64,000 bases of DNA. Origin: Selaginella tamariscina (lineage: Eukaryota; Streptophyta; Lycopodiopsida; Selaginellales; Selaginellaceae). Shown here one piece after another: positions 17,431 to 46,025 of the stretch. Below the pieces are notes generated by a model, which saw only the letters and a program-made list of their open reading frames with translations, was not told the DNA's origin and searched no databases. Every line of letters starts with the position of its first letter. Position 1 is the stretch's first letter. The translations under genes were made by a program, and so were the position numbers. The DNA lies in assembly GCA_003024785.1 (NCBI GenBank), contig PUQB01000159.1:352001-416000 (forward strand), written 5' to 3'.

Positions 17431-19150
17431 AAGTTGGACGTAGGTGCAGGCTCCATTGGTGCTGCTCATACCATTCCATCACTCAAGTTTCCTGTACACA
17501 TTCGCCTCAATAACCGAGAGCTCAAGGAGTTTGCCCTGTTAGACACTGGTGCAAATGCATGTTTCATGGATGACACTTTTAGCTCAGCATGGCATTCCGG
17601 TGGTGAAGTTGAAGCGTGCAGTTCCTGTAGAGGTGGCCGATGGTCGTTTGATTGCTTCTCGCAGTTACCCACGCTACCACACCTCTCTCTTGCAGTCATG
17701 GCGCATTCAACTGTTCGATTTCCTTCAACTTGATCAAGACTCGGTCGACTCCCATCATTTTTGGCATGCCATGGTTCGTTGTTGCAAATCCGCAGATCGA
17801 CTGGAGGTCTAGGACGCTCACGTTTTCCTCTCCAGCAGCCAGGATCAATCCTGTACCTTCCTGCGTGCAGGATACATCCTTGGTGTCTGAGGCAGTACAA
17901 GCTACAGGATTGACCGTGCCTGTTCCTACCAGTGTTGAAGACTCTTCCTCGACAGGATTCACCTCCTGTCAGTTCCTCAGCACATCCGCAGGTTCTCTCC
18001 ACTCCTGTAAGTTTGCGGATTCCTATACAGGGTTCTTCCAATCCTGTATCAGTGTCGAAGGTTCCTCCTCAACAGGATCCACCTCCTGTTGGTTCGTCAG
18101 CACACTCACAGGCTTCCCTCACTCCTGTGCAACCACGGACTTGTACAGGATTCTTCCAATCCTGTACACTCGTCAACATCCACACAGGTTTCTCCCAATC
18201 CTGCCTCCTTTTGTTACTCTGCTTCCGTTCCACCCCCAAGATCCTTCCTCTTTTTCAGTCACAGCTCCCTCCTGCTCCTCTCCGAGTTCTTACCACTACC
18301 ATGCATGAACTTACCACTGATCCTGCTCCTTTTCCACCTTTTTGCCTTTCAAGTAACTCCTACGTCCTCTTCTACCTTTCCTGTGTCTGACTCTCCTGTT
18401 TTTCAATCTCCTTCCTACTCCTTTTCTTCTCCTCCTTCTTCTCTACCATCCAAGTACCACGACTTTAAGGATGTTTTTGACAAGCACAAGGCTACAGTTC
18501 TTCCTGTTCACAAGTCTACGACTGTCCTATTGATCTTACAGAAGGAAAGACTCCACTGTTCGGACCGATTTACGCATTGTCACCCACAGAGTTGGAGGTT
18601 CTTTGCCAGTACATCGAGGACAACTTGGCATCCGGCTTCATTTGTCATTCAAAGTCCCCTGCAGGAGCACCTATTTTCTTTGTCAAGAAGAAGGATGGGA
18701 GCTTACGTTTGGTTGTGGACTACAGGGGTTTGAATCAAGTTACTATTCGGAATCGGTACCCGTTGCCATTGATCCCAGAACTTCTCGATCGGCTGCGAGG
18801 AGCAAAGGTGTTCACGAAGATCAACTTACGAGGGGCCTACAACCTTGTACGGATTCGTCCAGGCGATGAGTGGAAGACTGCTTTTCGTACAAGGTATGGA
18901 CACTTCAAGTACACGGTAATGCCCTTTGGCCTTACCAATGCCCCAGCCGTGTTCCAACACATGGTGAACGACATCTTTCGTGACTTCTTGGACCAGTTTG
19001 TGATGATCTACCTCGACAACATTTTGATTTTCTCCAAGGAGCATGCATTTACAACACTCAAGGACACCTTCACGACAGCTCCAATTTTAGCACATCCTGA
19101 TCCTTCTCGACCTTTCTTCGTTGAAGTAGATGCCTCGGATTTGCAGTAGG
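17431..19150 (+). pseudogene. Protease and reverse transcriptase of the full-length element
   Basis: The protease active site reads L-L-D-T-G-A-N-A-C-F-M-D (17,540-17,575). A long spacer rich in CCTGT/ACAGG follows. RT is open at 18577-19149: [44 protein letters not shown] (first catalytic Asp of F-x-K-x-D-L is Asn), [13 protein letters not shown] and [11 protein letters not shown]. The last is the Y-x-D-D box with the second Asp also changed to Asn. The frame then jumps from S-K-E-H straight to A-F-T-T-L-K, so the RT thumb and connection, over 100 residues, are deleted in frame. A stop at 19147 precedes RNase H. Confidence 0.85.
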
Positions 19151-20720
19151 TCTATCCTATCAAGTTGGAGAAGACAAGTTGCTTCATCCTGTAGCTTTTC
19201 ACTCTCGTAAGTTCCTTTCGGCGGAGATCAATTACGAGATTCATGACAAGGAACTCAAGGCCATTGTGGATTCGTTCGAGGAGTGGCGGCATTTCCTGAA
19301 GGTGCTGCGCATCCTGTACAAGTTCTTACGGATCACAAGAACCTGGAGTATTTTCAAACGGCTCGAGTTCTCAGTCGACGACAGGCTAGGTGGGCGAGTT
19401 CCTATCACGTTTTATTTCGTCATTGTCTACAGGCCCGGTTTTCGGAATGGCAAGGCGGACGCATTGTCTAGGCGCTCTTACCTTGCACCGGTCCGGATCC
19501 TGCATATGACTGTCAAAGACAAGTGTTGTTGGGTCCTGATCGATTCCGGCTTGCGGCACTACAGGTTCATCAGGCTCCAGCAATTCAACACTTTACAGGA
19601 CATCCGTTCGCAGTTGGCTACAGACGACTTGGCAAGAATGTGTTCTCACACATTAGTCCTGACATTGCAAGTTCCTCTTCCTCCAGTTCCCGTCAGACTA
19701 CACGCTGTTTGCCATACAGGACGGACTCCTGTACCGGGAAGGTCTCCTGTACGTTCCTGTTGGTGTTTGCAGGACTCGTGTGGTACAGGATTGTCATGAT
19801 ACCCCGGCTACAGGACATTTTGGTGTGGCCAAGACAGTTGAGTTGGTGACTCGCAACTATTGGTGGCCTGGGTTGCGAGGTTTTGTGGAAAGGTTTGTAC
19901 GGAGTTGTGACACCTGCAACAGGTCGAAGATGCCTCGTCATGCACCCTCTGGTCTTCTTCGTCCTCTTCCTGTTCCTTCTGCTCCTTGGAGATCCATTTC
20001 TATGGATTTCCTCACAGATCTTCCTCCTTCTCGCGGATTTGATGCAGTTCTTGTGGTGGTTGACCGTTTCACCAAACAGGCTCATTTCCTACCATGTAAC
20101 AAGACTGCTACAGGCAGACAACTGCTGAGTTGGTGATCCGCGAAGTGTTCCGACACCATGGTCTTCCTGAGAGCATTGTTTCTCGAGGTCCACAATTCAT
20201 GTCCAAGTTTTGGCGAGAGCTTCTTCGGAGTCTACAGGTTAAAGCGGATCTTTCTTCAGGATATCACCCGCAAACGATGGGCAGTCAGAACGCACAATTC
20301 AGACCTTGGAGCAATATCTTCGTGCTTCATCAGTTACCAACAGGATAATTGGTTGGACCTTCTTCCTATGGCGGAGTTTGCCTACAACAACTCCATTCAC
20401 GCATCTACAGGCCAGACACCTTTCTTTGCTCTTACAGGCCACCATCCACGTTTTGACTTTGCTCCTCCTGCTTCTCCTTCTTCCGCTCCTGCAGTACAGG
20501 ATCGTCTCCAATCTTCGTCAGGTACAGGATGATCTCCGGTTCATCTTCAGCAGGCACAGGAACGGTACAAGCATCATGCTGATGCTCACCGTCAACCGGC
20601 ACCTGCATACAAGATTGGTGATCTCGTGTGGCTTCTTCGTCGACACATTCGCACCAACAGGCCTTCTTCTAAGTTGGATTTTCAACGATTGGGCCCTTAC
20701 AGGATCGTGAGGTAAATCCT
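19151..20720 (+). pseudogene. RNase H and integrase of the full-length element
   Basis: RNase H residues are clear: [26 protein letters not shown] (19,180-19,270), then [10 protein letters not shown] in another frame. The integrase zinc domain has [10 protein letters not shown] and C-D-T-C-N-R-S-K (19,795-19,935). The core follows: I-S-M-D-F-L-T-D-L-P (first Asp kept), V-V-D-R-F-T-K-Q-A-H-F-L-P-C and E-S-I-V-S-R-G-P-Q-F-M-S-K-F-W. In that segment the usual Asp between Ser and Arg is missing as a whole codon, so the second catalytic residue is lost. A frame change destroys the region after Y-H-P-Q-T, including the catalytic Glu. Confidence 0.85.
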
Positions 20721-26784: not shown

Positions 26785-28500
26785 GAAGATCAACTATGAG
26801 ATTTATGACAAGGAACTTCTAGCTATTGTGGATTGCTTTCAAGAGTGGCAAAGGTTTCTTGAAGGTTCCCTGCACAAGGTAACCATCTTCATTTATCATC
26901 AGAACTTGGTTTACTTCTCACAGGCTCAAGTTCTAAATTGATCTCGAACTTGTTGAACCTATTAGATCCTCTCTCAGTTTGACTTTGAGATCAAGTATCA
27001 ACCCAACACTCAGCAAGTTTAATCCAACATGCTTTTATGACAAGTGTATTTGGCACTGCATGCTAGTGATGTCAAATTTGACCAACAAAAGCAAGTGGTA
27101 TTTGGTCCCAAACGCCTCCAAGCACCTGCCATTCATGTTGCACCCTTTGACTCTGGCCTTCTTAACACAATACGCTCTAAACTCTTCTTTGAGCCACTAG
27201 CTCAGGATATCTTGAGTCACCTTGTAAGTAACACTTCATCCGTCTCACGACCCGACTACAATCTATTCCAATTTGCTAATAGTTTGCTTCTTTGTAATGA
27301 CTTGGTTTATGTTCTATTGGGTGACACTAGACTTTAAGTGCTACAGTCTCATCACAACACTCCGATTGCTAATCACTTTGGAGTTACAAAAATAGTAAAA
27401 CTAATCAACTGTAACTATTGGTGGCCCCAACTATGCCAATCGATGGAAGAATTTATTTGTACATGTGACATTTGTGCTCGCTCTAAAATTCTTCATCATC
27501 ACTCGTATGGTCTCCTCCAACTGCTTCCAGCTCCAATAACACCTTGGTCTTGCATCTTAATGGACTTTGTGATTGATTGCTGTCAACTCATATTTAACAC
27601 TATTACCATCATCATGGACCATTTTATTAAGATGGATCACTTCCTACCATGTACAAAGACTATCACTAGTGAAGAGAGAGCTAACTTAGTTAACTCCTCA
27701 ACAATATTGTCAACGATTAGGTCCACAATTTATCACCAAGTTCTGGCAACAACTTTTAGAGCTACTCAAGATCAAGAGGTAGTTATCTTCGGGTTATCAT
27801 CCAAAATTCGATGGTCAATCAAAACACATTATCCAAGCCCTCAACAATATTTATGTTGCTTCATCAACTACCACATGATGATTAGTTATTGCTACTGCCC
27901 TTAGCTAAGTTCTCCTACAACAACTCCAAACATGCATCAATTGGTATGTCACCCATATATGCCTTGACATGTCAACATCCAAGATGGAGTTTTGATATAC
28001 CCAAGAGTTTGGTAAATCTGTATGTTGAAGATCAACTTAACCGTCTCCAGTTTGTCCAAGCTATGTTTCATCAACATCTTCATGTCTGGCTTCTTCGATG
28101 CAACATCAAGACTGCACAGCCTTATGAAAAGTTTGAAACGCCTTGGTCTATTTTTGGTGGCATGTCATATCAACAATGTGGCTTATCAGTTGGAGCTTCT
28201 TTCTTCAATACACATCCATCCAATATTCCATGTTTCTCTTTTTGAGCCATACCATCCAAACACACTCCATGATCGACTTTTACCACCTCCAGCTTCAGTT
28301 ACAATTAATAATGATTTGAAATACAAAGTCAACAAAAGTTTGAACTCCAAGTTCCTTTGCTACCGACTCTATTACTTGGTTGACTAGGTTGGCTACCCTA
28401 TAGGTGAACATTCTTGTAAACCTACAACAAATTTTCAACACGCTCGCGATGACATCAACAAGTTTCATCTCAGGTATTAGGACAAGCCCGGCTCTTAAAA
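26785..28500 (+). pseudogene. Second chromovirus remnant (RNase H, integrase, chromodomain)
   Basis: It starts with A-K-I-N-Y-E-I-Y-D-K-E-L-L-A-I-V (26,785-26,830), the same RNase H segment as the full-length element, then a zinc domain (27,338 on: S-H-H-N-T-P-I-A-N-H-F-G, N-Y-W-W-P-Q-L, C-D-I-C-A-R-S-K) and a core with I-L-M-D-F-V-I-D and H-F-L-P-C. The tail has L-A-K-F-S-Y-N-N-S-K-H-A-S-I-G and a decayed chromodomain (L-Y-Y-L-V-D before a stop at 28,385). It belongs to the same broad group as the full-length element but is far more diverged and lacks gag and RT. Confidence 0.8.
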
Positions 28501-28777: not shown

Positions 28778-29981
28778 TAAGGAACACCTCTAGTCAAGTG
28801 TGCCAATAAGCATGCCTAACTAAAAAATTTAAACTCCCTTTCATAGATACTTGTGTTGTACTATATTAATATCATCTTAGTATCATGTGTACTACATGAC
28901 ATTACTTATTAGATCTTATATTGTCATAGCCCCTTACAATTAAATAGTTAGACCTAGTGCTATAAACATTGTTGATGAGATTTCCAACTTTGGATGCCCT
29001 CACTTGAAAACTCTTTTAGGTGCCCAATTCACACACATTTAATCAAGTGCATTAATATAGTGCTCACAACATGAGTTAGGATGCATGTGCAACTAGATGT
29101 ATGTGTTAGTTCATAACATGGTAAAATTACAGGGGAAGTAACCCTTAGGTGTGATGTACCCAACAGGGCACATGAATGGCATAATGAGTATGTCTTAACA
29201 ATACAAGTTGAGTTTGCACCACTAAAGAAAGTAAAGCACTCTATTGGTCTTTTCTGTACTTCTTTTATACCATATCTACATTATTTAAATGATGAAACAA
29301 CACCCACCATAAGAGTATTATCCCTCTCTTCTTAGTTAGAAAGACAAAAGATCCTTTATACTACTTAACTAGGTGACACATGATGTACATGAATGACAAG
29401 AACCGTGAGACCCCTCCACCACCACCATATTCCACTAACTAAGCTTATTTCTTAGTAAGTTCAACAAAAGTTAAGCTAACCCTAGGTTCTTTTAAAACTT
29501 CAAAGAACCCAACATGTCGAACTTCAAATATTACCAATGTTGCACATGATTCTCATGGTTTAACAAGTAATAAACAAGAGGTGAACACAATAATCAAGTT
29601 CAACGTTCTTATGAAAAATTTAATAAGCCAATGGTCTCCAATTGGTCTTCCCATAAATAGGTTAAGATTTAATGAAGGTGACATACTAGTATTGTGAAAG
29701 CTTTATACTAATCAAGCTATATGTTGTATATTTTGAGCCTAAATCCTTGGTGTGCTTCATAATCACATATGTGCCACCTTAATTTCCCAAGCCATAGGTC
29801 TTTCACATATTTTTCATGAACTAACAAGGATGGATGATTGACAATTTAGCGGTTGCCAAGCACATGCCAAAGAAGATACATATTGCTATCACCCATATTC
29901 TGAAACACGATGATACAAGTGGGTAGAATGTGATTTAAGGGTGAACAAATTTAGTGTAGGTAGCAATGGTTGGGAATTCAT
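28778..29981. other. AT-rich spacer, no gene seen
   Basis: Noncoding AT-rich DNA between the chromovirus remnant and the left edge of the large inverted-repeat element. No frame over 60 codons, no RNA gene and no clear repeat. Confidence 0.5.
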
Positions 29982-29988
29982 ATGCCAA

Positions 29989-30009
29989 GTTGTAACTAAA
30001 ATGGGCATG
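29989..30009 (+). repeat. Left terminal inverted repeat of the 14.65-kb element
   Basis: GTTGTAACTAAAATGGGCAT plus one G. Its reverse complement occurs at 44612-44632 with one difference. Just inside is a small hairpin, AAATGGG ... CCCATTT (about 29,999-30,024). Confidence 0.6.
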
Positions 30010-30483
30010 GCTATAGTCCCATTTCCTAATAATTAGCAATTTTAGCTATTTAATTAGCATTTTCTAATATTAAAGGAATATTCTTTAGAATATATGTTTG
30101 AAAAGAGAATATTCTTTAGAATATTCTATTTTGTATTCTAAATAAATTATAGCATTCATTGAACAAAAATTAATAACATTATAAAAGTAGAATGTATTAA
30201 ATTATATAATATATTGCCTAATATAACAATTAAGGAAGAGCATAAGAGGTACATTATATAAATATTGATGTTGTTATTAAAATATTAATATTTAAATATA
30301 ACATTATTAATTAAAAATTTGTAGTAGTAATAATATATATATAAAATCCTATAATAATATAGTCAATCTTCCATATCATTTTTTAAATTTATATAGTTAA
30401 GTATACAATTTGGTACTATTATTAAAGAGTTTATAATAATTATGAATATTAAATATATGATATTTTATAATTTTGTAATTGCT
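30010..30483. other. AT-rich subterminal region
   Basis: Very AT-rich with GGAATATTC, AGAATATTCT and TTTAGAATAT motifs at 30,088-30,135. Similar GAATATTC motifs occur near the right end (44,440-44,470), so they could be subterminal binding sites. They also occur elsewhere in the AT-rich DNA here, including outside the element. Confidence 0.35.
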
Positions 30484-33400
30484 TTAAGCTTCAGAAAACA
30501 TACATTCCCTTGCAGTTTTGTTAATCGTGACTTTATCAACGCTTCTTGACATCCACCCATATCGAATGGATTTAACATTTATAAAACATGCTGGGTCTTT
30601 TTGATTGGGAGACCATGTTTTCTCTAGGCATCCATTATATCTTTCGCTCTCCTTCTCGTGTCGCCTTTTTTGTGGTTTGAACCATGCAACCTTAACAATA
30701 CTATTTTTTGTGATTACTTCAGGTGTGTCGATAATTTGACCCATCCAAATAGGCTGATTATATGACGCATCTGGAGTAATGAGAACCATCATTAGTTTTT
30801 GAAGATCCTTGCAGCAATCAAAGTATGCTTTAGGTTTTTGGTTCCTTTGTCCAACAAAGTGTGGGGTTTGCACTTCCACATCACTACTGGCTTCTATGTC
30901 GTCTGTGCTCAGTGATGTCATTTCAATCTCCTCTCGCCACCTTGTTTTAGGCCAAAAGGGTGTTGCAATTCTGTACTTGTGACAGTAGGCCCTTCCAACT
31001 CTCGAACAACAGTCTCCCAATAGTTGACCACATGCTTATATAGTTCTGAGTAACCAGTTGCCTTATCAGAATTCTTTGGCATCGATTTTTGAACCCATGC
31101 CACATATTTTTTGATGCCATCAATAATAACCTCTTGTTCCTTGAGCTGGGCACTCAATGGAATAGGGTCTGGTTGTCCTTCTGGGAGAAGTGGCTTTCCA
31201 TCCTCTCCACTTTTGAAGAGCATTAAGCCCTCTTTCGGTAACCACTCCTGCTCTGATGGCCGTAACTTGTACTGCATAATAGGTATACCATCTCGTATGG
31301 AGAAAAAGAATTGTAGCGGCACAAGGTGACCAACTAAAGAATCACTCCCTTCTTTTATATACTCCTTGAGAAATTTTTTGAAGTCTGGCACCTCAGTCAC
31401 AAGCAAAGCACAACTTTTTTTGGAGATGCAATTTTCAAAAAGATTCATCATATGCGGTAAGGTAAGTGCACTTGTCCTTTTTGTAGAGTTGGAGACCTTG
31501 CTGAAGAACGCATCAATATCTTCATGAGTGTGACCAACCATAAGGAAACTGAGCGTGATTGTTTCAAACACACCTTTGGCAACAAGCATTGACAAGTATG
31601 CTAGCACATATCTAGAAAATAAAAGTAAGTATGAGCTTGAGAAACCCTTAAGTAAAATGATTTACCTATTTTTGTTCTCGCCTGCACAATTATCCATCTG
31701 TAAAAGCAAATGACGAGGAAGCTTATTTGATGTTGAGGACACATGTACACTATTTGAGCTAGATCCCTCCACTGAACCTGAACTCTCAACAGGGCCATCT
31801 GTTTTTTGTGCAGGTTGCTGACAATGCCTCTCATATTCCCAAGTAGCCTCAAGTGCAGATGTTCATGAGAGCATTATGTAAAGGTTGAAGGTGTTGTTTC
31901 TTCACTTTGAGATCACTGATAGGACTTGTCTGTGAGTGGGCTTCAAGGTTTCTGAAACACATGGCTAACGACCCAATAGTGAAATTGGAGTCGCTAGACC
32001 AATGTGGAAGTGAAAAGTGTCCATATGACTCACAACCGTGTCCATGTGTTAGCACACCTGTCAATGAAATCGGAAGTTTCATGACATTTCCAAGGCACTT
32101 TGGTGTTGCAAAGAGCTTTGGAATGCTGGTCTTTGAATGATCCATCTTGTCATGGATCAAGCACAGGTACTCTGATGGGCGTGACACAGAAAGCATGCGG
32201 TGTGCATAGTACTGAGACCGGCAAGTTTGTTGTGCAATCATGTGGGCCTCCATCTTCCTTTGAATGGTAGTGATCTCCACCAAGGTTTTTGCACAAGCCT
32301 CTGCAGCCTTCAATGATGTACAAGTGTCACACTTAGAAAAGCTAGAGTGTTTTGCAATCTCCACATCCTTAAAATGAGTATTCCATATGTTGTTGAAGGT
32401 ACCAGTGCAGATTGCTTGGAGCCCCATCAAACTGAGGCACTTGTTCACATGTTCACACAGTTTCAATTGAGTGTAGATTGAAGGTAAAACCTTGAGATTT
32501 TCCCTGACCCCTGCATTTGTGGTTCGGCATTTGTGAGGCATCCTGTCTGCATTTGCTTCCACAAAAGCCTTGAGTATCTCTATGGCTGCCATGATGTGAG
32601 AGCGGGTTTTGACCAAGCCAGTGTTCCCATGAACTGAGGTTCGCGCTCCATCTAGCCACTCATCCCTCCGACGGTAGAACGTGGTCTTTGGGATCCCGTA
32701 TATACTGTACCAAGCTTTGAAGCAGATGGCCACCTTATTAAATACCATGGATGTACTCTGATAACCTGTGTCCGAGGCCATTCCATCAATACACCCAGTT
32801 AGTGCAGCATATACAAACTCATGCCTTTGCTTTTGGGTGAGCATACGAAAGACATGTCTACATTGGGTAATTTCATTCCGGTCTGCCATCTGACAACACT
32901 TCTTCTTGCAACAGTCAATCGTGGAAATGCTCGTAACACTTTCGGAAGATGTAGGATCCATCTTTACCCTCTTGCCTGAAACTTGCAGGGGAAGATCTAC
33001 AACCCATGAATCGCCTTTTTCTTACAATAGGACCAATGCAAGGAACCTCTTCAAATATGAGTTGTTCTTCCGGGTTGTTATTATTGAAATCCAACCCAGA
33101 ATATGTTGAACCATCTTGCCGTCTTAATTCAGATGTTCGCCACCTCACGAGGGATCCAGGATACAATGTGCCATTAGGTGAAACCTCTGTCACAACTACA
33201 CCCACGAAGTCGGACCCTAGTTTCTCTTCTGACACTGCTTCCATTGGATTTATAGCTGTGATGATGCCTCTTCCGACTTCAATCTCACGAAGAAAGAGAA
33301 TCACCTCATCCATACAGCAGGCAAGCCATCATCTGGTAAACTCGTGCTACTATTTGTTTGTGACTCTGCATATTCTGTGTCAGCCTTGACTTCATCCAAA

Positions 33401-33612
33401 TTCCACAATACAGGAGAACCCTCCTCAAATTCCATTCCCAGAACCTCAACATGCTTGTAAATGGTGTTCACCCATACGTACACACAAGATCCTTGGGAAA
33501 TATTGTGACATGATGCATTATTATCTCGAACTTCCACAGTTCCAGTGCCAACTATCTCGTTGTTCCGAAGAAGACATACTTTATCTCCAGTATTAAACAT
33601 ATTGTCCTGCAC
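30484..33612 (-). CDS. DUF7869-type protein, candidate transposase of the 14.65-kb element
   Basis: About 1,000 residues encoded leftward in six collinear blocks. The first block (33612-33301) has F-N-T-G-D-K-V-C-L-L-R-N-N and V-Y-V-W-V-N-T-I-Y, resembling the small domain in En/Spm-related plant proteins. The main block (32961-31849) has a Cys-rich start (D-C-C-K-K-K-C-C-Q), a helix-turn-helix-like G-I-P-K-T-T-F-Y-R-R-R, a C-D-T-C knuckle and L-I-H-D-K-M-D-H-S-K-T (near 32,145). Across an intron (31612-31665) follow Q-M-D-N-C-A-G-E-N-K-N-R and F-L-M-V-G-H-T-H-E-D-I-D. These three motifs define DUF7869. Their spaced acidic residues look like an RNase H-fold DDE nuclease; that function is inference. 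Junctions near 33305, 32950, 31855 and 30955 each need one extra base to stay in frame. The start at 33612 is the first Met of the leading block. Confidence 0.75.
31612..31665 (-). other. 54-nt intron in the DUF7869-type gene
   Basis: On the minus strand the donor GTAAATC follows N-K-N-R (codon AG|A split) and the acceptor TTTTCTAG precedes ATATGTGCTAGC. Splicing joins G-E-N-K-N-R to Y-V-L-A-Y-L-S in frame across two family motifs, so the intron is well supported. Confidence 0.85.
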
Positions 33613-33749
33613 ATAAATAATTGTATTATTTATGATATCTGTTTATGCAATTTTTAAGAAATCTGAATTACGGTTACTTAATAATATGCATATGCAATAA
33701 TACATAATTATGTTTAGAGATAATATCTCATGTTTGATTAATACAACTG
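33613..33749 (-). promoter_or_regulatory. Upstream region of the DUF7869-type gene
   Basis: AT-rich 140 bp between the first Met of the leftward gene and the first palindrome of array 1. It probably contains the promoter or 5' leader; no certain TATA box can be singled out. Confidence 0.3.
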
Positions 33750-34560
33750 ATGGGCGGGATTAATCCCGCCCACGAATCCCTCCGACGAGGAACGGTCGGC
33801 GGGATTAATCCGCCGCCGACTCAACCCCTTCGGAGAGAGTCGGCGGGATTAATCCCGCCTTGGACTCCCTCCGACAAGGAAGAGCCGGCGGGATTAATCC
33901 CGGCCTCTTCCTCCTCGGGGGAGTCCGGCGGGATTAATCCCGCCGACTCCTCCGACGAGGAAGAGTCCGGCGGGATTAATCCCGCCGACTCCTCTCGGGG
34001 GGAGTCCGGCGGGATTAATCCCGCCGCGACAGGAGGGAGTCCGGCGGGATTAATCCCGCCGACTCATCCTCGCCGGAGAGAGTCGGCGGGATTAATCCCG
34101 CCGGACTCCCCCGAGGAGGAAGAGGCGGCGGGATTAATCCCGCCGGCTCTTCCTTGTCGGAGGGAGTCCAAGGCGGGATTAATCCCGCCCACAATTCTTA
34201 CGACGGGGAATGGGTGGCGGGATTAAACCCGCACATAACTCTCTCCAAAACTATGATTTCAAAGAGATCTCGGGATAAATCCTGTCCCCAAATCTTTAAA
34301 ACAGGGAAGTGGTGGCGAGATTAATCCCGCCACCCCTTCCCTGCCTCCTAAAATGGTTGGCGGGATTAATCCCGCCGACAACTCTTTCTAATAAATTCTG
34401 GTAACTCTTCATCAGTTGAGAAGGTTATCGACGGGATTAATCCCGCCACTCTTTTTCAGTGGCGGAGAAGCATTGCCCGGGAGATGGTGGCGGGATTAAT
34501 CCCGCCACTCTTCAAAGAGGCAAAAAGAAATGGCCGGATTAATCCCGCCGCCCGGTTAAC
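33750..34560. repeat. Palindrome array 1 (about 18 copies)
   Basis: The unit core is the perfect 18-bp palindrome GGCGGGATTAATCCCGCC, repeated with few changes at intervals of about 39-45 bp (starts near 33753, 33798, 33842, 33887, 33927, 33969, 34008, 34043, 34085, then more widely to 34531). The spacers in the first half are themselves near-palindromes of the type GACTCCTCC-GAC-GAGGAAGAGTC. The array lies immediately upstream of the leftward gene. Copies toward the right are more degenerate. Confidence 0.95.
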
Positions 34561-36720
34561 CTAGAATATTAAGTTAAAAGGATATTTAAACGGATAAATC
34601 CCTAACGGAATATATTATAATCCTAATGCATTCTAAACCCCTAAATTGTAATTTTAAGAGAGAATGTAAGAGAGTGAATCTTTAATAAGTTTTTTAAATT
34701 TGTTTATAATACTTACTTGTAAACAGCACTGAAGGCGCCGTGCTTTCCTATAAAGAATAGCACCCAATTTAATCTCGCCCTGAGATGATCACTATGAAGA
34801 AAAAAGAAGATCTAAAGAGTGAAAAATACAGAAATGAAGAAACCCTTGCCGGAGAAAGAACCAGATCTGAATTTGAGTGGGAAATTAAATGCATTTTCAA
34901 ATTTACATGTCAGACCGACAATACATATGTCAGAAATTCAAATTTTTTAAAAAGAACAGAAAATAAAATTTAAGATGAGTTGACACAAATATCCGACACT
35001 CTGACATATATACTCTCCAGTTCCAATGAGTATTTTAAAATTGCATTTAATGTTATTCAAGTGATTCAAGCTGTTTAATATTACGAAATTTTAGACTATA
35101 TTCTACATTCTTAGTATTCAAGTATATTTATATTATATATATATATATATAATATATACTTATACAATAAATAAATTGATATATTATTATGTATCATTTA
35201 AAATATATTCATAGTCTGTTTATTATTATTATTTTCTTAATTACTCGAGTATTTAGTTTTCATTTCCTAGTATCAATGGGATATTCTTTAATATTTTATT
35301 AATATTTGAAGAATATTCTAATATTAAACCTGATTATCATAATTAAATTAGTCTTGTTCTTAATTATTGCAGTAATTATTCTACATTTGTATATATTAAT
35401 GGGATTTTCTCAATTAATTTGTTATTATTTCAAGAATATTCATGTGTTAAACCTTATTATCAATATTAAATTAATACACACTATGAACATATTTTAAATT
35501 ATACATAATAATACATCATTTTATCTAATATATAGTCATATATAGTTTTAATAATATATATTAATATCATTTCCTTAATTACTTGAGTAATTAATCTTCT
35601 TTATATTAATGGGATATTCTTTATTATTTTCTTATTATTCCAAGAATATTCCAATATTAAACATGATTATGATTAATTTAGTTAATTATTTGAGTACTTA
35701 ATTTACATTTGTATATATTAATGGGATTTTCTCAATTAATTTCTTATTATTTCAAGAATATTTCAATGTTAAACCTTTTTATCAATATTAAATTAATATA
35801 TATTATTAAAACTATATATGGCTATATATTAGATAAAATCATATATTATTATGTATAATTTAAAATATGTTCCTAGTGTGTTTATTAATATTATTTTCTT
35901 AATTATTCGATGTTTGTTTTGCACACATATATAAACACAATCATAAATTTACACACGCATTACAAGAACTTACAAAAACACATATGCACACACATGCACA
36001 ACCCTAAACCAAACTGAAGAAATAGTTGCTTCTTTATTGAAAACATCATGTTCAACGCATGTATGATATATGTACTCAATCTGTGTGACTGTATGTAACA
36101 CATTGAATTTACATGTGTAATATTTATATTAAGCTTGTTGGGAGCAAACCCTAAACCCTAAACCCTAATATGTAACACAATGAATTTACTCATGTAATAT
36201 GTATGTATGTCTGTGTGTATACACGTGTGCATGTATATATGTGTACTCTGTATGTATATATGTGTACTTTCTGTCTTCTCTCATACATACACACCATGCA
36301 TGATCCATGTTAATATGTACTGTCTCTCTTCTCTCAAACATATACACCATGCATGATCTATAATATGTACTCGGTCTCTCTAATATTATGTACTAATATG
36401 TGTGTATGTCTGTGTGTATACACGTGTGTATGTATATATTATGTGTATTAATATATGCAATGTGTATGTATGTATTGATACACATGAAACTTTAACACTC
36501 TCATGGACACACACATGTTAAATCCCTGCATGATTTATATTTTTGAGGTGTATGTGATACACCCACGCACACGCACGCGCTAATAATATAATGAAAGAAT
36601 ATTCGTTTAGGGCGAATCTATATTTTATTCTTTTTAGGGTTTAAGTATATTCTCAGAAGGAATATTCTATTAGGGTTAATATATATATTTAATTCCTTTA
36701 GGGTTTAGGTATATTCTTAG
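34561..36720. other. AT-rich spacer with a short telomere-like run
   Basis: Mostly AT-rich noncoding DNA. Near-duplicate stretches around 35,270-35,480 and 35,600-35,800 share TATTAATGGGAT(A/T)TTCT and TTATTATTTCAAGAATATT, so this is a local duplication. At 36,144-36,169 there are three CCCTAAA units. A repeated ACACCATGCATGATC block occurs near 36,290 and 36,345. No gene is seen. Confidence 0.6.
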
Positions 36721-37184
36721 GGTTTCAAGAGGCGGCGGCTGTGAAATCGGCGGCGGCGGCTGTGCACACAGGTGAGATCTGTGTGTGTGTGTGTGTGTAT
36801 GTATGTATATATGTATAGGAGTGTGCGTATTTATTTATTAGTTTTATCTCTCGCACACACACGCACACTCCTGTGTATGTATATGTGTGTGTGGGTGTGT
36901 GTTTGTTTATCTGTATGATTTTATTTGTTTCGCTCACACACGCATACACACGATATACATATACACATATATATACCTATATACTATACATACATATATT
37001 ATGTGTACCAGTATCTGTAAATTTTTTTTTATTGATCTATCTCTCCCACACACACGCACACTGCTTTACACACACACACACACAACACACACACCACACA
37101 TATATATATATATATATATATTATGTGTACCAGTATCTGTAAATTTTTTTATTGATCTATCTCTCCCACACACACGCGCACTGC

Positions 37185-37220
<36 letters not shown>

Positions 37221-38020
37221 ATATATATATATATTATGTGTACCATATCTGTAAATTTTTTTTATTGATCTATCTCTCCCACACACACGCGCACTGCTTT
37301 ACACACACACACACACATATATATAATATATATATATATATATTAATCAATGCATATTAACAAATAGTATACAACACTAGTTTATATATATCTATATATT
37401 CATATGGGTTATATATCTATATACACACTATATATATGTGTGTGTTTATCTGTATAATTTATTTATTTATTAGTTTTATCTCTCGCACACACACGCACAC
37501 TCCTGTGTATGTATATGTGTGTGTGTGTGTGTTTTGTTTATCTGTATGATTTTATTTGTTTCGCTCACACACGCATACACACAATATACATATACACATA
37601 TATATATACCTATATACATATACATACATACACATAGTTTATATATATGCTTATATATTCACAGACTCTCTCTCTTTTCTTAGATTATATATCTATACAC
37701 ACATATATATGTGTGTGTTTATCTGTAATTTTATTTATTTATTAGTTTTATCTTTCGCCACACACGCACATCCTGTGTATATATATGTGTGTGTGTGTGT
37801 TGTTTATCTGTATGATTTTATTTGTTTCGCTCACACGCATACACACGATATACATATACACACATATATATACCTATGTACACACATATTAGGTGTACCA
37901 GTACTGTATAATTTTATTTATTTATCTATCTCTTGCACAACACGTACACTCCTATACATACATACATACATACATATATATTATTATACACACACACATA
38001 TATATGTGTGTGTGTTTTAT
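36721..38020. repeat. Higher-order microsatellite block of (CA)n, (TG)n and (TA)n
   Basis: Not a simple microsatellite. A unit with GTGTACCA(G)TATCTGTAAATTTTT, TTATTGATCTATCTCTCCCACAC and CACTGCTTTACACACA repeats three times (about 37,000, 37,121 and 37,236). A longer unit with GTTTATCTGTATGATTTTATTTG and TCGCTCACAC recurs near 36,900, 37,540 and 37,805. Open frames across it are made only of repeat-encoded His-Thr and Tyr-Ile runs and are not genes. Confidence 0.9.
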
Positions 38021-38033
38021 CTCGCTAAGCCCC

Positions 38034-39485
38034 TCGAGCGGGGATTAATCCCGCCGCTATAGGTTTATAGCCTCGGCGCGGGATTAATCCCGCCGCTATA
38101 TGGTTGGCCATGGCGGCGGGATTAATCCCGCCGCGAGGGCCCCTCACGCAGGCTATGGCGGCGGGATTAATCCCGCCGCTCACCCATGCCCTGCGCGGAA
38201 TGCGGCGGGATTTATCTCGCCGGCAATGGCCTGAAGGTTTTAATGGGCGGGATTAATCCCGCCGGATTCCGCGCAGGGCATTTACAGGGGATGGGCGGCG
38301 GGTAATCCCGCCGCCGAGGGCCATGGGCGGCGGGATTAATCCGCCGCTCTTCGGTTTGTCGTAGAGCGGCGGGATTAATTCCGCCGCCCAGGGAATTCAC
38401 GCAGGACATGAACGGCGGATTAATCGGCCCCACACTCATGCCCTTCACAGAGGGCGGCGGGATTAATCCCGCCGCTCAGGCACTTCCGCTGGATATAAGC
38501 GGCGGGATTAATCCGCCCCCACCCATCCCTGTTCAAAATGCCGTAGCCAATTATATGTGTGAGCGCATGATTACGAGAGGGCGGCGGATTAGCCTCCGAA
38601 CCTTCATTACCGGTGGCGAGATTAATCTCCGAACCTTCATTACCCCATTGGTATGTTGAATCAATCCCGACTAACTCTGTCTGAGACGGAGAAGGTTTAC
38701 AAAATACCAATGGAGGGAACTGAGAAGGGTGGTGGGATTAATTTCACCATCCCTTACATGGTGGGCGGGATTAATCCGCCGCGTACGCATGCCCTGCGCG
38801 GAATCGGGCGGGATTTATCCCGCCGCCATTGGCCTGCCTGAAGGGCCTAGGCGGCGGATTAATCCCGCAAGATTTCGACAGGGCATTGACGTTCGGCGGG
38901 ATTAATCCGCGACTAAGGCCCGAGTGAAGGGCTGGAGGCGGGATTAATCCCGCCGGACGCCAATTCCCTACTCAGAATCGGGCGGGATTAATCCCGCGCA
39001 TTGGCCTGTCTGAAGTGCCTAGGCGGCGGGATTAATCCCGCCCGATTCCGCGAAGGAAATTGGGTCGGGCGGATTAATCCCGCCACATAGGGACGAGTGA
39101 AGGCCCTGGGCGGCGGGATTAATCCCGCCGAGTCTTTAATGCCTGTTGGAGGAATGAATCCCGCCACCCTTCCTTTGTTTTCTCCATTGGTGAGTCGGAC
39201 CAATCCAAACGTTTCTATCTGAGACGTAGAAGGTTTTCAACATACCAATGGAGAGAATTGGGAAGAGTGGGGAAATTCATTTAACCATCACTTACATGGT
39301 GGGCGAGATTAATCCCGCCTCCTTTCTGGAGTCACTGAAGGGTGTGAGAAAATAAATCCTGCCCAGTTCTCTGAGACTGAGAAGGTGGCAAGATTAATTC
39401 CGCACTCCCGTTCAAGGCCTCCAGAAAGGTGCGAGATTAATCCCGCCCACTCTTTCATGAGGCATTGAGGGTGGCGAGATTAATT
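38034..39485. repeat. Palindrome array 2 (about 30 copies)
   Basis: The same 18-bp palindrome GGCGGGATTAATCCCGCC with variants such as GGCGGGATTTATCTCGCC and shortened GGCGGATTAATCC. Spacing is again about 38-47 bp (for example near 38075, 38115, 38160, 38205, 38246). The spacers here differ from array 1: they share GCCCTGCGCGGAAT, GGCCTG(CCTG)AAG and CATTCCGCG. Two gaps at about 38,640-38,720 and 39,175-39,300 carry a related block, CCATTGGT(A/G)TG ... GAGACG(G/T)AGAAGGTTT, seen twice. It ends about 340 bp upstream of the rightward gene. Confidence 0.95.
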
Positions 39486-39822
39486 TTCATGTGAATATAT
39501 ATGTGTATTAGTATATATAAGTTGCATATCTCATTTTATTTACTTTTATCATCTTATCATAATATTTCGAGTAAAAGCTAGGAATCTATGTAAACTGTCT
39601 AGAGCTCACATTTGTTGGTTCTAAAACGAAATGTTATCTTTCTTTTTGCACTAACACAAATGTGAGCTTCGGACAGTTAATTACGTCTACTTCTTCTCTG
39701 TGTATTATTTTTGTATATTCGGGTTTATACAAGTGTGTGTGCGTTTTTATATAATTTATATTTATAGTGTATTATTTTGCAGAAGGACGATTTGATCAAA
39801 CAAGGAGATCGAGTCATTTAGT
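39486..39822 (+). promoter_or_regulatory. Upstream region and probable 5' leader of the ParB-like gene
   Basis: AT-rich 340 bp between array 2 and the first plausible start. TATATTTATAGTG lies at 39,759-39,771 and a possible leader acceptor TTTTGCAG at 39,775-39,782. It also contains CTAACACAAATGTGAGCTTCGGACAG, which forms an inverted repeat with CTGTCTAGAGCTCACATTTG 50 bp earlier. Confidence 0.35.
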
Positions 39823-42800
39823 ATGGAGTCGTCATCAAATTCTGGGTAAGAATTAAAATAAAATCTGTTTACTCGGATACTTGAAACTAATCATTTTGTA
39901 TTCAGATGTGGAATTGAAGTGACATTAAAGACAAGGCAGGAGAAGAGATGGGCAGGGGGATTCTGGAATCAACTTGGCCATATTTTAAGATAAATGGGAA
40001 GCGCATTGGAGCAACCATGGCTGCTGTCAAATTAACCTCTGTCACATCTCATGGACAAGCAAAACAATTAGATTCGCTAGTCAAGCACCCGAAAGCAGGC
40101 TGCGAACCCAGATTGGACGATGCTCGACACATATGCCTTGTTCCATCCAATGTCACGTTCTCGGATCCAGAGGTCGTCAGTTACAACATTAATTCGGGTG
40201 GTTTTGTCGACTTGTGGATAATGACGTTCACGTGTTCACTAATGATGTTGACCTTGGAGTTCTTCTTCAACTCAACGAAAGCCCATCTATGGAGGGGATC
40301 CATCTGGATGTCTACTTCGAAATCTTCAGACTCATCGAGTAGGTGTATTGTCAGGAGATATTGCTTCACAATACAGAAAATCAGCAAGGAGCAATCTTCC
40401 CTCTTCACATTGAAGAAGAACACAGCGACATCATAATGGAGATTGAGAGGGTGGCTCGGTCTCAGGTTCTCTACAGATCACGTTCAATTTGCTTAGGAGC
40501 TTGGGAGCTGGAAGAGTGCCGAGAACACTAGAACAGCTGCAGTCGGGGATCACACATGTTGATTCGGATCGCAAAAGAAAATCATCAATCGTTTTGTCAG
40601 CTGCACCTGTGGCATCTCATGCTGCAATAAGTCACAAGGAAATGATGTTGGATGATAAGATTTATCCTTGTAGGGTTAAATATTGCAGCGTCAACCCAAA
40701 CTTCAATTACAGGCCACTCAACCAGGAACGTGTAGCTGAGCTCATGGAGAAGATGAAGGACGACAATTCTTATACCGTTCCACATAATGCTGTTTTGTGT
40801 CCATACTATGAAAGAAGGAAGGGTGCTGACAAAGTCTGGATCACAACACCAGAACAACTCATGAAGATTCAGACGGAGAATAAAAATCTATCAAGTACTA
40901 CATCATTAGTGGCCAGCACACAATAACGGCAGCCCAACGACTTCTCGATGAACACAACAAAGGAACGATGGCAACAAAACTTTCCGAGCATACCCGTGAG
41001 AAGCTGACAAAAAGATCGGCGTTTTTAGCTAAGCCGAATCTCACAATCGAGCAGTACCATAAGTTATCGGCGGAATGGGACGCTGCCGACACCAACCACT
41101 ACAACAGCAAAATATGGGAGAAGTTTAAACACACGCGAGCCGTGTGGGAATCTCTTCAGCGACCACAAAGAGCTACCGCAGGGAATACACAATCTGCGGA
41201 ATACCGGGTAAGCAAATTGTTTGGGCGGGATTTATCTCGCCGGTATATTAATCTGTCTTTTTCCTCAGAGAGTTGAAGAAATTGCAGCAGTTGATTTTGC
41301 CCAGGTGGGCGGGAAGGAAACATCCTTTCTGATGATGTTGATTTCTTGCCCCGAAGATAGGATCTTTGCCAAATGGTTGGGGATTATGGAATCCTTTTCA
41401 AAAGGAACACTGAAGAAGAAGCAGACAAGTGAAGGGGAGCCCTCAGAAAAGTCTGCAAAGAAACCCAGTAAGACGCCGAAGGCTAAGTCTGTTCAATCTA
41501 CAAAGGATGTAGACAACGATTTCAAGCTCACATGGTTGAAGCCTTTAAATGGAACAACGATGGAGGAGATGGAAGTCTTGGCTGATTTGGTGATCGATGG
41601 CAAACTACAAATTAATAACAGCAGCCCAACCTCTCCTTTTCATCTCAAGGCAATGGAGTTGAAGACGGTCAGGCATTTCAAGGAGTGGTTGGGAATACAC
41701 TGCCACAAACTGGGTTGGACCTCGACTTCAACATATGAAGAGGTCAGCAAATATTTGCATGTGACGAACGATGATATGCTTGTCGAATGGGTGAACCAAT
41801 CGGAAGATCTAGGCAAGAATCTATTGCACGCCAACGCCAAAAAGGAGAACATTGGGATGACGCCTTCTCTTATGGCAGTCCTTCAGCAGCGGAGAACCGA
41901 ATTGAACCTTATAAAGGAGGATGCTACGAATCACGACAAGCCCTACAGATGTTTGTTGTTAGATTCGGAGACTTTATGGGGTAACATCACTGCTTGTAGG
42001 AAACCGTTTCAATTGTTCGTGATGGATCGGCGGGTGTCAAAAAATCTTTCGACAGATAGGGCACTAGAGGATCTGGTGGAGAAACTTAGCCGTGCAAGCA
42101 TATACATAGAAGGTATTTATTATTGAATTCATGCTTGCGCTCTTCACTGATACCTACTTTTTCAGGTATTTATTTCTTGATTCTTGCTCATGTCACCGAT
42201 ACTTTTGCCTTCGCCTTCGCCAAGAAGAATAGACATCGTTGGACAGGATTTTATATGAACGATGCTAATCCCAAGTGCATTGATACGTTGTTCACTTGGT
42301 TGTTAGGAATGCGCCAAACAATTTCAAGCTTCCAAATGACTGGCCAGGCATCTGTTTGCACTCCAACGGCCCTGAACCTCCATCCGATACACCGATAGGT
42401 ATGAGTGACGTATTCGGCAATGTACGTTATCCAAACATTACAAGTCAAGCGGCACGGAGCATCGTCAACTTGATCAGGGGTCCTCACAGTGATGCGTGGG
42501 TTTTTGACTACTGCACTAGGGGGTCCGTCTTGAAGGAGTGTTACCTTCGGCATACATGTGTGTTTGCCGTTGAAAAGGATAAGACCATGGTTGAGGACCT
42601 GAACAAGTGGATAGATTGGGTCTCAACTGAGTACCCCAACGATCCATAAAGGCGTATTTGAGAAAGTTCCCTCCAGATAAGTGCGATAGCTCTGAAGGTG
42701 AATCTGGTTCAATCTCGGAGTCTGAGAACGAACTTCAATCAGATATTAGACCGGAAGTTATCTCGAGGAGTACAGAACATTCGCACACTCCAGGACCCAT

Positions 42801-42909
42801 GGAAACATCAATAGAAGATGCAGAAGATCTTGAACCATCTCACAAGCGGCTTAGACCTTCTTCGCCTCACTCAGAAGGTAATAGCGAAGAAGAATTGATA
42901 ATGAATTGA
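39823..42909 (+). CDS. ParB-like domain protein with degenerate DNA-methyltransferase motifs
   Basis: I do not recognise the N-terminal part (to about 40,640). A ParB/sulfiredoxin-like domain follows: F-N-Y-R-P-L-N-Q-E-R-V-A-E-L-M-E-K-M (40,702-40,755) and, after a frame change in an A5 run at 40,882-40,886, Y-Y-I-I-S-G-Q-H-T-I-T-A-A-Q-R-L (from 40,896), like the ParB G-x-H-R box. A Lys-rich linker comes next. C-terminally, L-L-L-D-S-E-T-L-W-G (near 41,955) sits where beta-class N4/N6 methyltransferases have D-P-P-Y/W, and V-F-D-Y-C-T-R-G-S (42,500) where they have F-x-G-x-G followed by an acidic V-E-K-D. The order (motif IV before I) is beta class, but both motifs are degenerate, so catalysis is doubtful. 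Introns 41208-41268 and 42113-42165 keep frame. Five or six single-base shifts and one in-frame TAG (40340) remain. It ends in an acidic tail. Confidence 0.6.
41208..41268 (+). other. 61-nt intron containing one copy of the palindrome
   Basis: GTAAGCAAATTG...TTTTTCCTCAG, phase 0, joins S-A-E-Y-R to R-V-E-E-I-A. Its centre (41,222-41,242) is GGGCGGGATTTATCTCGCCGG, a single copy of the array palindrome with two changes. Confidence 0.85.
42113..42165 (+). other. 53-nt intron in the ParB-like gene
   Basis: GTATTTATTATTG...CTACTTTTTCAG splits a Gly codon and joins Y-I-E-G to I-Y-F-L-I-L in frame. The exon sequence after it begins with GTATTTATT, the same as the intron start. Confidence 0.75.
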
Positions 42910-43364
42910 TAGAGTGATGAATAGTTGTAAATGAGTGTAACATAAGGCATTTTTGTATATTTCTTTTATATTTGTACAGAAAATAAATTCTCAAGGATTA
43001 ATGAAGCTTTTAGTTCAAACATGGGTCACACATTAACAAGGTAAATAATATACCTTGATAATTTTAAGGTCAGCTAATTATCATTTTGCAGATGTAATGA
43101 AATAATTGAGAACATGGATTTTCAGCATTGCCATGAGGTAAGAGAGGGGTTTGGCGACAATTTCTTGTGCCACATGTCAGAATGACAGAGTTCATGCAGG
43201 AAATGGATAATAATGCAGCTCAAAACATCGTTACCATGGGGGCCACTTCATTTCATCATCATTTTATTGGCTTCAGTTCCGAAATCAATTTCTTCAGCGC
43301 ATGCAATATCTGAATCTTGTAAGGATGATGTACAATTAAATGATGAAGGGATAGGCAACGAATA
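42910..43364 (+). other. Gap between the ParB-like and phosphatase genes
   Basis: Contains a likely 3' end of the ParB-like gene (ATTTTTGTATATTTCTTTTATATTTGTAC then AATAAA at about 42,983) and a candidate first exon for the phosphatase (ATG at 43,113, then H-C-H-E and the donor GTAAGAGAGG). No palindrome copy is present. Confidence 0.4.
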
Positions 43365-44350
43365 GTGGCAACGGATAAATGTGAAAGGGAGCAAACAAGT
43401 GATTTGCAAAGTATTCAAGAGGCAACGCTATCTCATGTTACTCATGGCCATATTGTGTTGTTGGATGTCAATGGTGTTCTGCTTCATCGACAAAGGCCCC
43501 AGGATAGAAAAACAGAAATCAAACAAGGAGATTTCATTCCTTGTCATGGTAAATTTCGATATGATATTATTTTTCGTCCAGGGTTGGATCGTCTCTTTCA
43601 AAAGCTTAAGGAGATGGGTGCGCTTGTGGGGATTTGGTCATGCATGCAGATTCATAACTTAACACCGCTGTTGATTTACTTAAGAAACATTGTAGTGTTG
43701 CAGAAGAGGTGATTCGTAAAGATTGGATTTTTGACCAGCGAATGTGTCATAAACCTCTCGAATTTCACAATATAAGAAAGGAAAGCAAGCCATACTTCTT
43801 CAAGAATGAAAGAATAATTGGGACTCATGGGGAGATCAGTCGCTTAAGGATAATGAAGAACGCACAGATGTTAGTAGTAGACGACTCTCCTCAGAAGGCT
43901 ATGCTCAACCAAAACATTGCTTGTATTCATCCAATCACTTTCGATCCATATTCTGATACCGATATCATGGATGAGCTAGTGAACTACTTGGATACGTGCC
44001 TCAGAAAGAAGAATCTCGAAAATTTTTGTGAGCAGTATCCACCGTATCATACATTTCCTGAAGCTTTTCTTTCTCGTGATATTGAATTTTATAAAATGAA
44101 GGATAGCAACCGGGCGCTTTATAATATTATTCTTAAGGAACGTCAGTTTTTAGATGAGCCTTTATGCAGACCTTCTCTTATCACATCTTATGTATTAACA
44201 AGGATGGCAACTCCCAATTGCATTCGTGAGAGTGTTAAGTGGTGGCAACAACATCAAGATATTGACCAAAATGATTTGATTAATCCGGAGAGTGATGATT
44301 TAGACAAAATGAAAAGATTTCTTTGTATGATAGAAAGAAAGTATTTATAA
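43365..44350 (+). CDS. FCP1-like HAD-family phosphatase (one frameshift)
   Basis: HAD phosphatases use an N-terminal Asp as nucleophile; the FCP1/SCP branch removes phosphate from proteins such as the Pol II tail. Motif I is V-L-L-D-V-N-G-V-L-L (43,455-43,484), with Asn in place of the second Asp, a form I associate with a plant FCP1-like subfamily. Motif II region is V-G-I-W-S-C-M, and the late acidic motif is L-V-V-D-D-S-P-Q-K-A (43,871-43,900). The frame changes near 43,659, where one base is missing: the new frame continues directly with N-T-A-V-D-L-L-K-K-H-C-S, so the protein is otherwise continuous, about 325 residues. The first listed start is GTG; a Met or upstream exon may lie before it (MDFQHCHE at 43,113 is followed by a GTAAGAG donor). 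It is the last gene before the right end of the element. Confidence 0.8.
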
Positions 44351-44611
44351 AAAATTAACATGTTGATAAGAAAATGATTTCATTTGTAATTATGTTTGAT
44401 AGTATTTCTTCATTATTGTAAACTATTTTTAGAATAATATGAATATTCTAAGATATTTTAGGAATATTCCTTACTAAGTAAGGTTATTGAAGGATTAATT
44501 AATTAATTAATTAATATTTAAGGCTTAATTACATATTAATTAAATGATTAATTAATAATTAAAACTTAAGTATTAATTAGTAATTTATTTTATATTCCCA
44601 TTTTCACGTAT
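44351..44611. other. AT-rich subterminal region, right side
   Basis: Very AT-rich with runs of TTAATTAATTAATTAA (about 44,495-44,515) and GAATATTC motifs near 44,440-44,470, mirroring the left subterminal region. No gene. Confidence 0.4.
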
Positions 44612-44632
44612 CATGCCCACTTTAGTTACAAC
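44612..44632 (-). repeat. Right terminal inverted repeat of the 14.65-kb element
   Basis: CATGCCCACTTTAGTTACAA plus C, reverse complement of the left repeat at 29989-30009 with one mismatch. It is followed by GTGC and then ATTCAT (44637-44642), the candidate target-site copy. Confidence 0.6.
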
Positions 44633-44636
44633 GTGC

Positions 44637-46025
44637 ATTCATTTATACAAAAGGTTAGGACATGTTTATAACCAGCACTAGAAATGGTCGTTAATAAGTT
44701 CCTTCACATCTAACACCGAGCTTTTTCTTGTAGAGCTTCCAGCGTGGTAGAGTTTTCACCATGGATTGGTGTGGATCCCCCACAATTGAGGCACCAAGAT
44801 ATCAACCTATTAGGAAATGAGGGGCATGCGTGGAGTGAAGGTTGGTCAGTACTAAACATGAGGCCCTCTTGGATAGCACATACAACAACAAATGACTAGT
44901 CGATCTTTGCCATACTTTGCCCTCGCTTTGTCAATAGTGCTGCTGAACAATTTATAATGATTCAGATCTACCACATATAAGCAAAATACCGATATATGTT
45001 GATTCTTTACATATGTGAAAAAAGGAAGTATTTTCTATTTTTAAATTATATTTTACATAATTTAATTTAAGTATATTAAATACAATTTATTTAAAATGAC
45101 ATTTAATTAAAAATGACATTTTAAATATTATAACCTTTCAACACTTTTCAACTAGAATAATCTAGAACATTCTACTCGTTTTAGAATAATTTAGAATATT
45201 CTACTCGTTTTAGAATAATCTAGAATATTTTATTTCAATTTGGGGCAAATAGGATTAGGATTAGGCTAGGGTTTGTGTTAATGTAGGAAATCACTTATGA
45301 TACATTAACACCATCTTCACGTTTAACATTTTCGATCATGCTCCTCACCTTCAATCTTGTTCTTCTACTAAGGTTTATTAAAATCTATTAGCAATCCATA
45401 TAGAACTAACATCCTTGTTCCCCAAATGTGTGGCTCCCCCACATTAATGAATATTGGTGAAGGTTCAATCAAATAATTTAGCCCTCTTTATAAAACTAAT
45501 GCATGCAACCTCTAAGGATAACCCTCACTCTTATAGCTACAATGTGTGTTTTCTGATCTATTTAATCACATGAAGCTCGTGGTAATCACAAATAACATCG
45601 GCTTTGATCACCTTTTGCAACTCTTCAATAAAATGAATATAAGAGCTTGGAGGGAAACAATAGCAATTAAAGAAATTTATGAAAATCATGCATAGGCTTA
45701 TGTAAAGCTCTCTATATACTATGAGAAGGTTTGGAGAGCAATCATGAAAGTAAAGTATTCATGAAAAGGATAAGATATGGTTTTCAAATGGTTGTTTGTT
45801 ACTTTTGGAGCATACTTAATCGATTTTTCATGTTATAGGTTTTGATTGTTGGATAAACTCTCTTAAGAGTCACTTCTTAGGCTGCTAATTGAGTTTACTG
45901 GTTTGATATGAAATGAGCACTATATCTTTTAGCATGACATGGTTGATACTAAGAATGACACAGATTGGGAATGGTTTCATTAGCACTAGAAGGATGTAAT
46001 AAATGATGAAGATTGCTTGACATTC
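44637..46025. other. AT-rich spacer with a short tandem repeat, no gene seen
   Basis: At 45,150-45,235 a unit ATTCTACTCGTTTTAGAATAATCTAGAAT repeats about two and a half times. The rest is noncoding AT-rich DNA. GGATTAGGATTAGGCTAGGG at 45,250 resembles the TTAGGG-rich ends of the next element. Confidence 0.5.

Follow-up and report, generated by a model that had tools for sequence, protein, structure and literature searches.

A giant, probably Sola-like DNA transposon with internal palindrome arrays in Selaginella tamariscina

En/Spm, a CACTA element, is a multi-gene plant transposon with repeated sites for its own DNA-binding protein and with GC-rich control regions; TnpA binds the repeated sites, and CACTA elements have CACTA termini and a 3-bp target duplication. 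Sola elements have a DDD transposase, a 4-bp target duplication and terminal inverted repeats (TIRs) of 11 bp and longer, some exceed 15 kb, and they are present in Physcomitrella (PMC10741241, available in part). Sola1-1_Ec32 of Ectocarpus is 21.5 kb long and carries, opposite its transposase, a second gene for a protein of 1104 amino acids (aa) with ParB-like and DNA-methyltransferase (MTase) domains; similar ParB/MTase proteins have been attributed to transposons of green and red algae, and Sola-1 makes up 0.17% of the genome in that paper's table (PMC12477816, available in part). The VANDALs of Arabidopsis are MuDR elements (PMC12730594, available in part), and VANC strips methylation from non-coding regions of its own VANDAL family, where the motifs that it binds are dense and often repeated in tandem (PMC5735166, available in part). 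Here, we describe a DNA transposon found in a 64,000-nucleotide stretch of Selaginella tamariscina DNA (contig PUQB01000159.1, positions 352,001 to 416,000), which is referred to as the window. The transposon spans 29982-44638 of the window and carries a DUF7869 gene, a ParB/MTase-like gene, an FCP1-like gene and two arrays of an 18-bp palindrome.

Ends, target duplications and spread

The initial annotation had placed the element between 29982 and 44636, with a 21-nt inverted repeat marking both edges and ATTCAT outside each, and had proposed a single mobile unit. The inverted repeat was recovered: GTTGTAACTAAAATGGGCATG (29989-30009) and GTTGTAACTAAAGTGGGCATG (reverse complement of 44612-44632) are identical at 20 of 21 positions, and GTTGTAACTAAARTGGGCATG is the inner repeat sequence at both edges, inverted relative to each other. 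The outer bases ATGC(C)AA and ATGCAC lengthen the repeat to 27-28 bp, giving a left TIR, ATGCCAAGTTGTAACTAAAATGGGCATG (29982-30009, forward strand), and a right TIR whose reverse complement is ATGCACGTTGTAACTAAAGTGGGCATG (44612-44638, reverse strand). The 300.7-Mb assembly (1391 contigs) was searched for other copies with the same ends, a check proposed in that annotation. The exact inner 21-mer had 2926 matches (1482 + 1444, both ends counted) and none in a backward control, which rules out chance. If every end belonged to a 14.7-kb element, there would be about 1,463 copies making up 7.2% of the assembly, an estimate that includes some elements that are not full length and misses decayed ends.

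For a 601-bp left-edge query, the best 40 of 965 candidates were scored. The window matched the whole query, and the other 39 scored matches all began at query positions 76-83, equivalent to 29975-29982, at the proposed left edge. A right-edge query gave 40 full-length matches among those scored. This query ends two bases past the element and serves to demonstrate copies; the right edge itself was set by the flanks, which differ between copies beyond both tips. Among the first 100 places listed, 28 neighboring ends were convergent, and 18 of these were spaced 13-16.5 kb apart, compared to 4 of 37 non-convergent neighbors. Seven of ten fetched loci had both exact repeats, 14,293-15,197 bases apart (tips excluded), C125 differed by one base in its right repeat, and C918 and C678 had no matching right end and were excluded. 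Element length across copies is 14.3-15.2 kb.

Twenty-nine copies for which both ends were available were compared for target duplications: the 18 pairs spaced 13-16.5 kb, eight of the ten fetched loci, the window, L005 and L008 (L007, in which a right end could not be located, was left out). Of the right tips, 24 are GTGCAT and four are a near variant, and one copy (L034) has none. Therefore, the AT at 44637-44638 is element sequence, and the right end lies two bases beyond the edge first proposed, while the left edge stands. ATTCAT is present where it had been noted, at 29976-29981 and 44637-44642, but on the right it consists of the terminal AT of the element plus TCAT, as the 4-bp duplications and the empty sites indicate. 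The target-site duplication of the window copy is TCAT, at 29978-29981 and 44639-44642, in the register given by the 29 copies. In a fixed register, the four bases past the 6-bp tips matched between the two ends of the same copy in 13 of 29 cases and between ends of different copies in 15 of 812 pairings. A 6-mer matched in at most 3 of 29 copies, and a 6-bp duplication was rejected. A 20/29 agreement at offset 1,1 reflects the TGCA within the terminal ATGCAA/GTGCAT and not flanking DNA. By eye, and allowing a tip one base longer or shorter, the duplication is also seen in the window, L005, L032 and L064. The remaining 12 copies are without it, although three (L038, L052 and L062) could have it with a shift or filler bases; in C811 and L008 the two flanks originate from different places. 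An NNAT target motif, suspected from the first copies, was dropped because further duplications were AAGA, TCTA and AACG.

The left tip in the window is ATGCCAA, one base more than in most copies. Left tips vary across the 29 copies (ATGCAA, ATGCAAA, ATGCCAA, ATGGCAA, ATGTAA and others) and right tips are mostly constant; one of the two ends may be processed less precisely.

Two empty sites could be read in copies without the insertion. The C528 site is CACAG-ATAT-ACATAC and the L005 site is TTTAAA-ATAT-GTTC, and ATAT was duplicated on insertion in both cases. Both are insertions within sister copies of the same family. The empty sites that had been anticipated were therefore seen, with a single 4-bp target rather than an ATTCAT-like 6-mer. 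Shared ends, differing flanks, end spacing, duplications and empty sites together establish the single mobile unit that had been proposed. Precise inverted termini shared between copies, a constant 4-bp duplication and empty sites with one copy of the target are the features of a TIR transposon, and a cut-and-paste mode of transposition is predicted.

The transposon has been active and has spread recently. Among eight copies including the window (28 pairs), mean substitution divergence was 0.14% over 3.7 kb at the left and 0.31% over 4.7 kb at the right. Gapped identity between copies was about 97-98%, and indels are thus far commoner than substitutions. All three genes have broken reading frames in the window copy and open ones in some other copies. 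Since indels are the commoner change, many broken frames, perhaps including those of the window, may be assembly errors. When P0006, a relative of the DUF7869 protein, was used to search the genome (47 matches from 44 scored of 6811 candidates), the whole span of the transposase could be read in one frame at no fewer than 41 places, apart from a single TAA that would fit a short intron. Known family ends adjoin at least six of these places (C80, C84, C414, C471, C875 and C918). The P0006 matches listed were uniform in score and length, and none was recognized as a second transposon family. The broken frames of the window and several other copies, and the rearrangement or nesting of some, could also be expected of a non-autonomous or dead repeat made of host gene pieces in a segmental or satellite-like duplication. 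The empty sites already disfavor such a repeat, as do the target duplications, the near-zero substitution divergence and the open transposase spans, and we consider it very improbable.

Six of 16 examined left flanks (L002-L028 set) sit within other family copies, 0.7-10% diverged. The probability of this is 5e-4 at a 7% genome share and 0.08 at 20%. A preference for self-insertion is possible, as is a family larger than counted. Next to or near the elements at C811 (L021/L022) and C918 (L019/L020) is another copy, whole or partial and in inverted orientation, and the flanks of C811 share no duplication; these loci are read as rearrangements between copies.

The three genes

All genes read outward with the repeat arrays between the divergent genes, as initially described, and this agrees with the open reading frames (ORFs), Pfam matches and site mapping. 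The DUF7869 gene lies on the reverse strand. Exon 1 (31666-33600), whose frame is broken in the window copy, holds D391 and D541, and exon 2 (30484-31611), broken here and open in other copies, holds the third acidic cluster, GHTHEDID. Residues are numbered by the 925-aa reading of copy C1004. A GT...AG intron is predicted at 31612-31665, and the ORF at 30918-31661 matched Pfam PF25273 (DUF7869) at 4.4e-27. D391, D541 and D581/D583 are nearly invariant across 61 aligned rows; residue E580 is E in 52 of the 61, making DDD and DDE indistinguishable. The predicted model of relative P0008 has an RNase-H fold with structural matches of middling Z, and Foldseek on a transposase relative gave no match at E <= 0.001. 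The predicted fold and the conserved acidic residues of relatives suggest that the DUF7869 protein is probably an RNase-H-fold DDD/E transposase, supporting this reading of a widespread domain of unknown function.

The ParB/MTase-like gene (39823-42909, forward strand) was assembled from splice signals read in the sequence. The proposed exons are 39823-39845, 39906-41207, 41269-42112 and 42166-42909, encoding about 975 aa; the frame is broken in the window copy, and the three large exons are open in copy C803. The protein contains VNPNFNYRPLNQERVAELMEKM ... IISGQHTITAAQRL, which we take to be ParB-like features, and a C-terminal tail, AWVFDYCTRGSVLKECYLRHTCVFAVEKD, which is presumably MTase-like. 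By motif resemblance, it is a putative ParB-like protein plus DNA methyltransferase. The DPPY-type motif expected of a methyltransferase is not evident, and catalysis is therefore doubtful. No ParB or MTase profile matched in Pfam, NCBIfam, PHROGs or PDB sequences. Among 5.8 billion proteins, no homologue of the protein was found at E <= 0.001, nor any of the ParB-like part alone at E <= 10. An AF2 model of the ParB-like exon alone was unusable (pLDDT 34). Differences from an older copy, L_C678, at codon positions 1, 2 and 3 were 8, 6 and 26. The other comparisons gave 50, 40 and 51 (C811_tail M1), 11, 8 and 19 (C811_tail M2) and 8, 8 and 6 (L_L008 M3), and the sums were 77, 62 and 102 (p 0.006). 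The third-codon-position bias expected of a gene under selection is seen in one of three comparisons and is weak or absent in the others.

The FCP1/NIF-like gene (43182-44350, forward strand) has a broken frame in the window and is open in C1133 and C803. The C1133 protein matched Pfam PF03031 (NIF) at 7.3e-12, with 45.7 bits against a cut-off of 21.8. Against PDB sequences, nine rows were found at E <= 1, every one p27. FCP1/NIF-type phosphatases are expected to have DxD as their first motif; here it is DVNG. The product is a predicted phosphatase by its NIF domain, and codon-position counts of 3, 2 and 5 are too few to judge selection. Most likely, this would be an acquired passenger or accessory gene.

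Outside the transposon, retroelement reverse transcriptase/RNase H and integrase zinc-binding domains were found at 18481-19799 and 27338-27904 of the window.

Palindrome arrays and the protein that may bind them

The 18-bp palindrome GGCGGGATTAATCCCGCC forms a left array (33753-34549) with units mostly 35-45 bp apart, the nearest of which lies upstream of the transposase ATG at a distance of about 150 bp. The right array of the same palindrome, located by site mapping (38038-39447), comes within about 375 bp of the ATG of the ParB/MTase-like gene, on its upstream side. Between them is an AT-rich central spacer (34550-38037) with microsatellites, a short telomere-like CCCTAAA run (36147-36168) and no recognized gene. 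In copy C803 (L023/L024), frames of 824-882 aa are open on both strands at element positions of about 5885-8544, which is probably a long simple repeat. A further palindrome with two mismatches lies at 41224-41241, within an intron of the ParB/MTase-like gene.

Sites with up to four mismatches from GGCGGGATTAATCCCGCC number 42 in the element and 0 in the rest of the window. The exact palindrome has 27,128 matches in the genome and 0 in a control, and its chance expectation from the dinucleotides of the window is about 0.0006. This gives a mean of 18.5 perfect palindromes per pair of exact ends. The first 100 listed are all on contig C1. Of these, 86 are on the inward side of an exact terminal repeat and no more than 15.3 kb from it, in intervals that together make up 6.7% of the contig stretch concerned; the remaining 14 fall into three groups that have no exact terminal repeat close by. 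When the 36 window units containing GATTAATC were aligned at their centers, 18 positions were conserved (1.1-2 bits, the inner eight being fixed by the choice of seed), compared to at most 0.38 bits in their surroundings. In eight copies, most units were spaced 38-47 bp apart or roughly double this distance. The exact palindrome has been kept and the spacers lost, which argues against mere tandem duplication, and the palindromes resemble sites that have been selected for binding by a dimeric protein. Ten units are still present in the L007 flank, an older copy diverged by about 10%; eight of these units have 1-3 changes, with many G-to-A or C-to-T changes among them.

On balance, we favor a giant, Sola-like cut-and-paste transposon whose palindrome arrays dock its own ParB/MTase-like protein. 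The DUF7869 transposase would act on the terminal repeats of about 27 bp to give the 4-bp target duplication. The ParB/MTase-like protein would dock on, and perhaps methylate, both arrays upstream of the divergent transcription units and in this way could shield the promoters from silencing or autoregulate the transposase, functioning like VANC. That this particular protein binds the arrays is by itself a tentative proposal.

Alternatively, the same mobile element could have arrays that bind a host transcription factor or the transposase itself, in the latter case as internal accessory sites comparable to the repeated TnpA sites of En/Spm, with the ParB/MTase-like gene unrelated to them. The arrays sit directly upstream of both gene starts, as promoter elements would. 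The ratio of observed to expected CpG is 1.07-1.11 in the arrays, like an unmethylated promoter. Elsewhere it is lower, at 0.77 for the central spacer, 0.73 for the other genes, 0.49 outside the element and 0.40 for the transposase gene. However, 18.5 perfect sites per pair of ends would exceed the need of an ordinary promoter, and the arrays are about 3.8-9.5 kb inside the element, unlike transposase binding sites, which are usually subterminal. We give this alternative roughly one chance in three.

A bolder form of the docking proposal, which we think unlikely, is a self-addressing transposon whose own ParB-type protein, which may be a DNA methyltransferase that is still functional or has been repurposed, binds the roughly 27,000 palindromes and marks the promoters of the family as exempt from silencing. 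If true, this would explain how one 15-kb family reached about 7% of the genome, and it would be a eukaryotic ParB-parS-type system for epigenetic self-recognition.

Comparison with known transposons

By the estimate above, 7% of a 300-Mb genome belongs to one young 15-kb family. Its superfamily is probably Sola, a placement made by features and not by comparison of transposase sequences. The 4-bp target duplication, large size and inverted termini are those of Sola elements generally; their transposase is DDD, and that of this element is DDD or DDE. The element could instead belong to a still unnamed superfamily defined by the DUF7869 transposase, as a literature search found no paper mentioning DUF7869, and the named DUF7869 relatives are from bryophytes, a sea cucumber and bivalves. 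We judge this the less probable placement, since the 4-bp duplication and giant size fit Sola, Sola occurs in the moss Physcomitrella (PMC10741241, available in part) and a Physcomitrium protein, P0028, is among the DUF7869 matches. In addition, a ParB-MTase gene is also present in a Sola1 element (PMC12477816, available in part).

That Ectocarpus element also overturns the initial statement that such a gene content is known from no family of eukaryotic elements. Like Sola1-1_Ec32, the Selaginella element is a giant DNA transposon with a ParB/MTase-type gene on the strand opposite the transposase (about 975 aa compared to 1104 aa), although its ParB and MTase domains are recognized by motif only. 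It differs in host lineage and in its estimated share of the genome, about 7% compared to 0.17%. Palindrome arrays are not mentioned in the available part of the Sola1-1_Ec32 description, and the word "phosphatase" is absent from the text of PMC12477816. The Selaginella element is probably a Sola transposon distinguished by an unusual copy number, an FCP1-like gene and genome-wide palindrome arrays.

Membership in CACTA was considered and rejected. Like En/Spm, this is a multi-gene plant transposon with repeated sites that would be bound by an element-encoded protein and with presumed GC-rich control regions. In contrast to En/Spm, its termini are ATGCA..., its duplication is 4 bp and not 3 bp, its sites are internal and its transposase is of a different family.

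The nearest proven parallel for the suggested role of the arrays is VANC, by analogy. In VANDAL elements, binding of a repeated motif by an element-encoded protein is proven, while here it is inferred. The VANC21 motif is also different, being a 9-base, non-palindromic sequence in one orientation (PMC5735166, available in part). If the palindromes of the Selaginella element do dock its own protein, the escape of a giant transposon from silencing becomes testable, with a candidate protein, an exact site and thousands of natural targets named.

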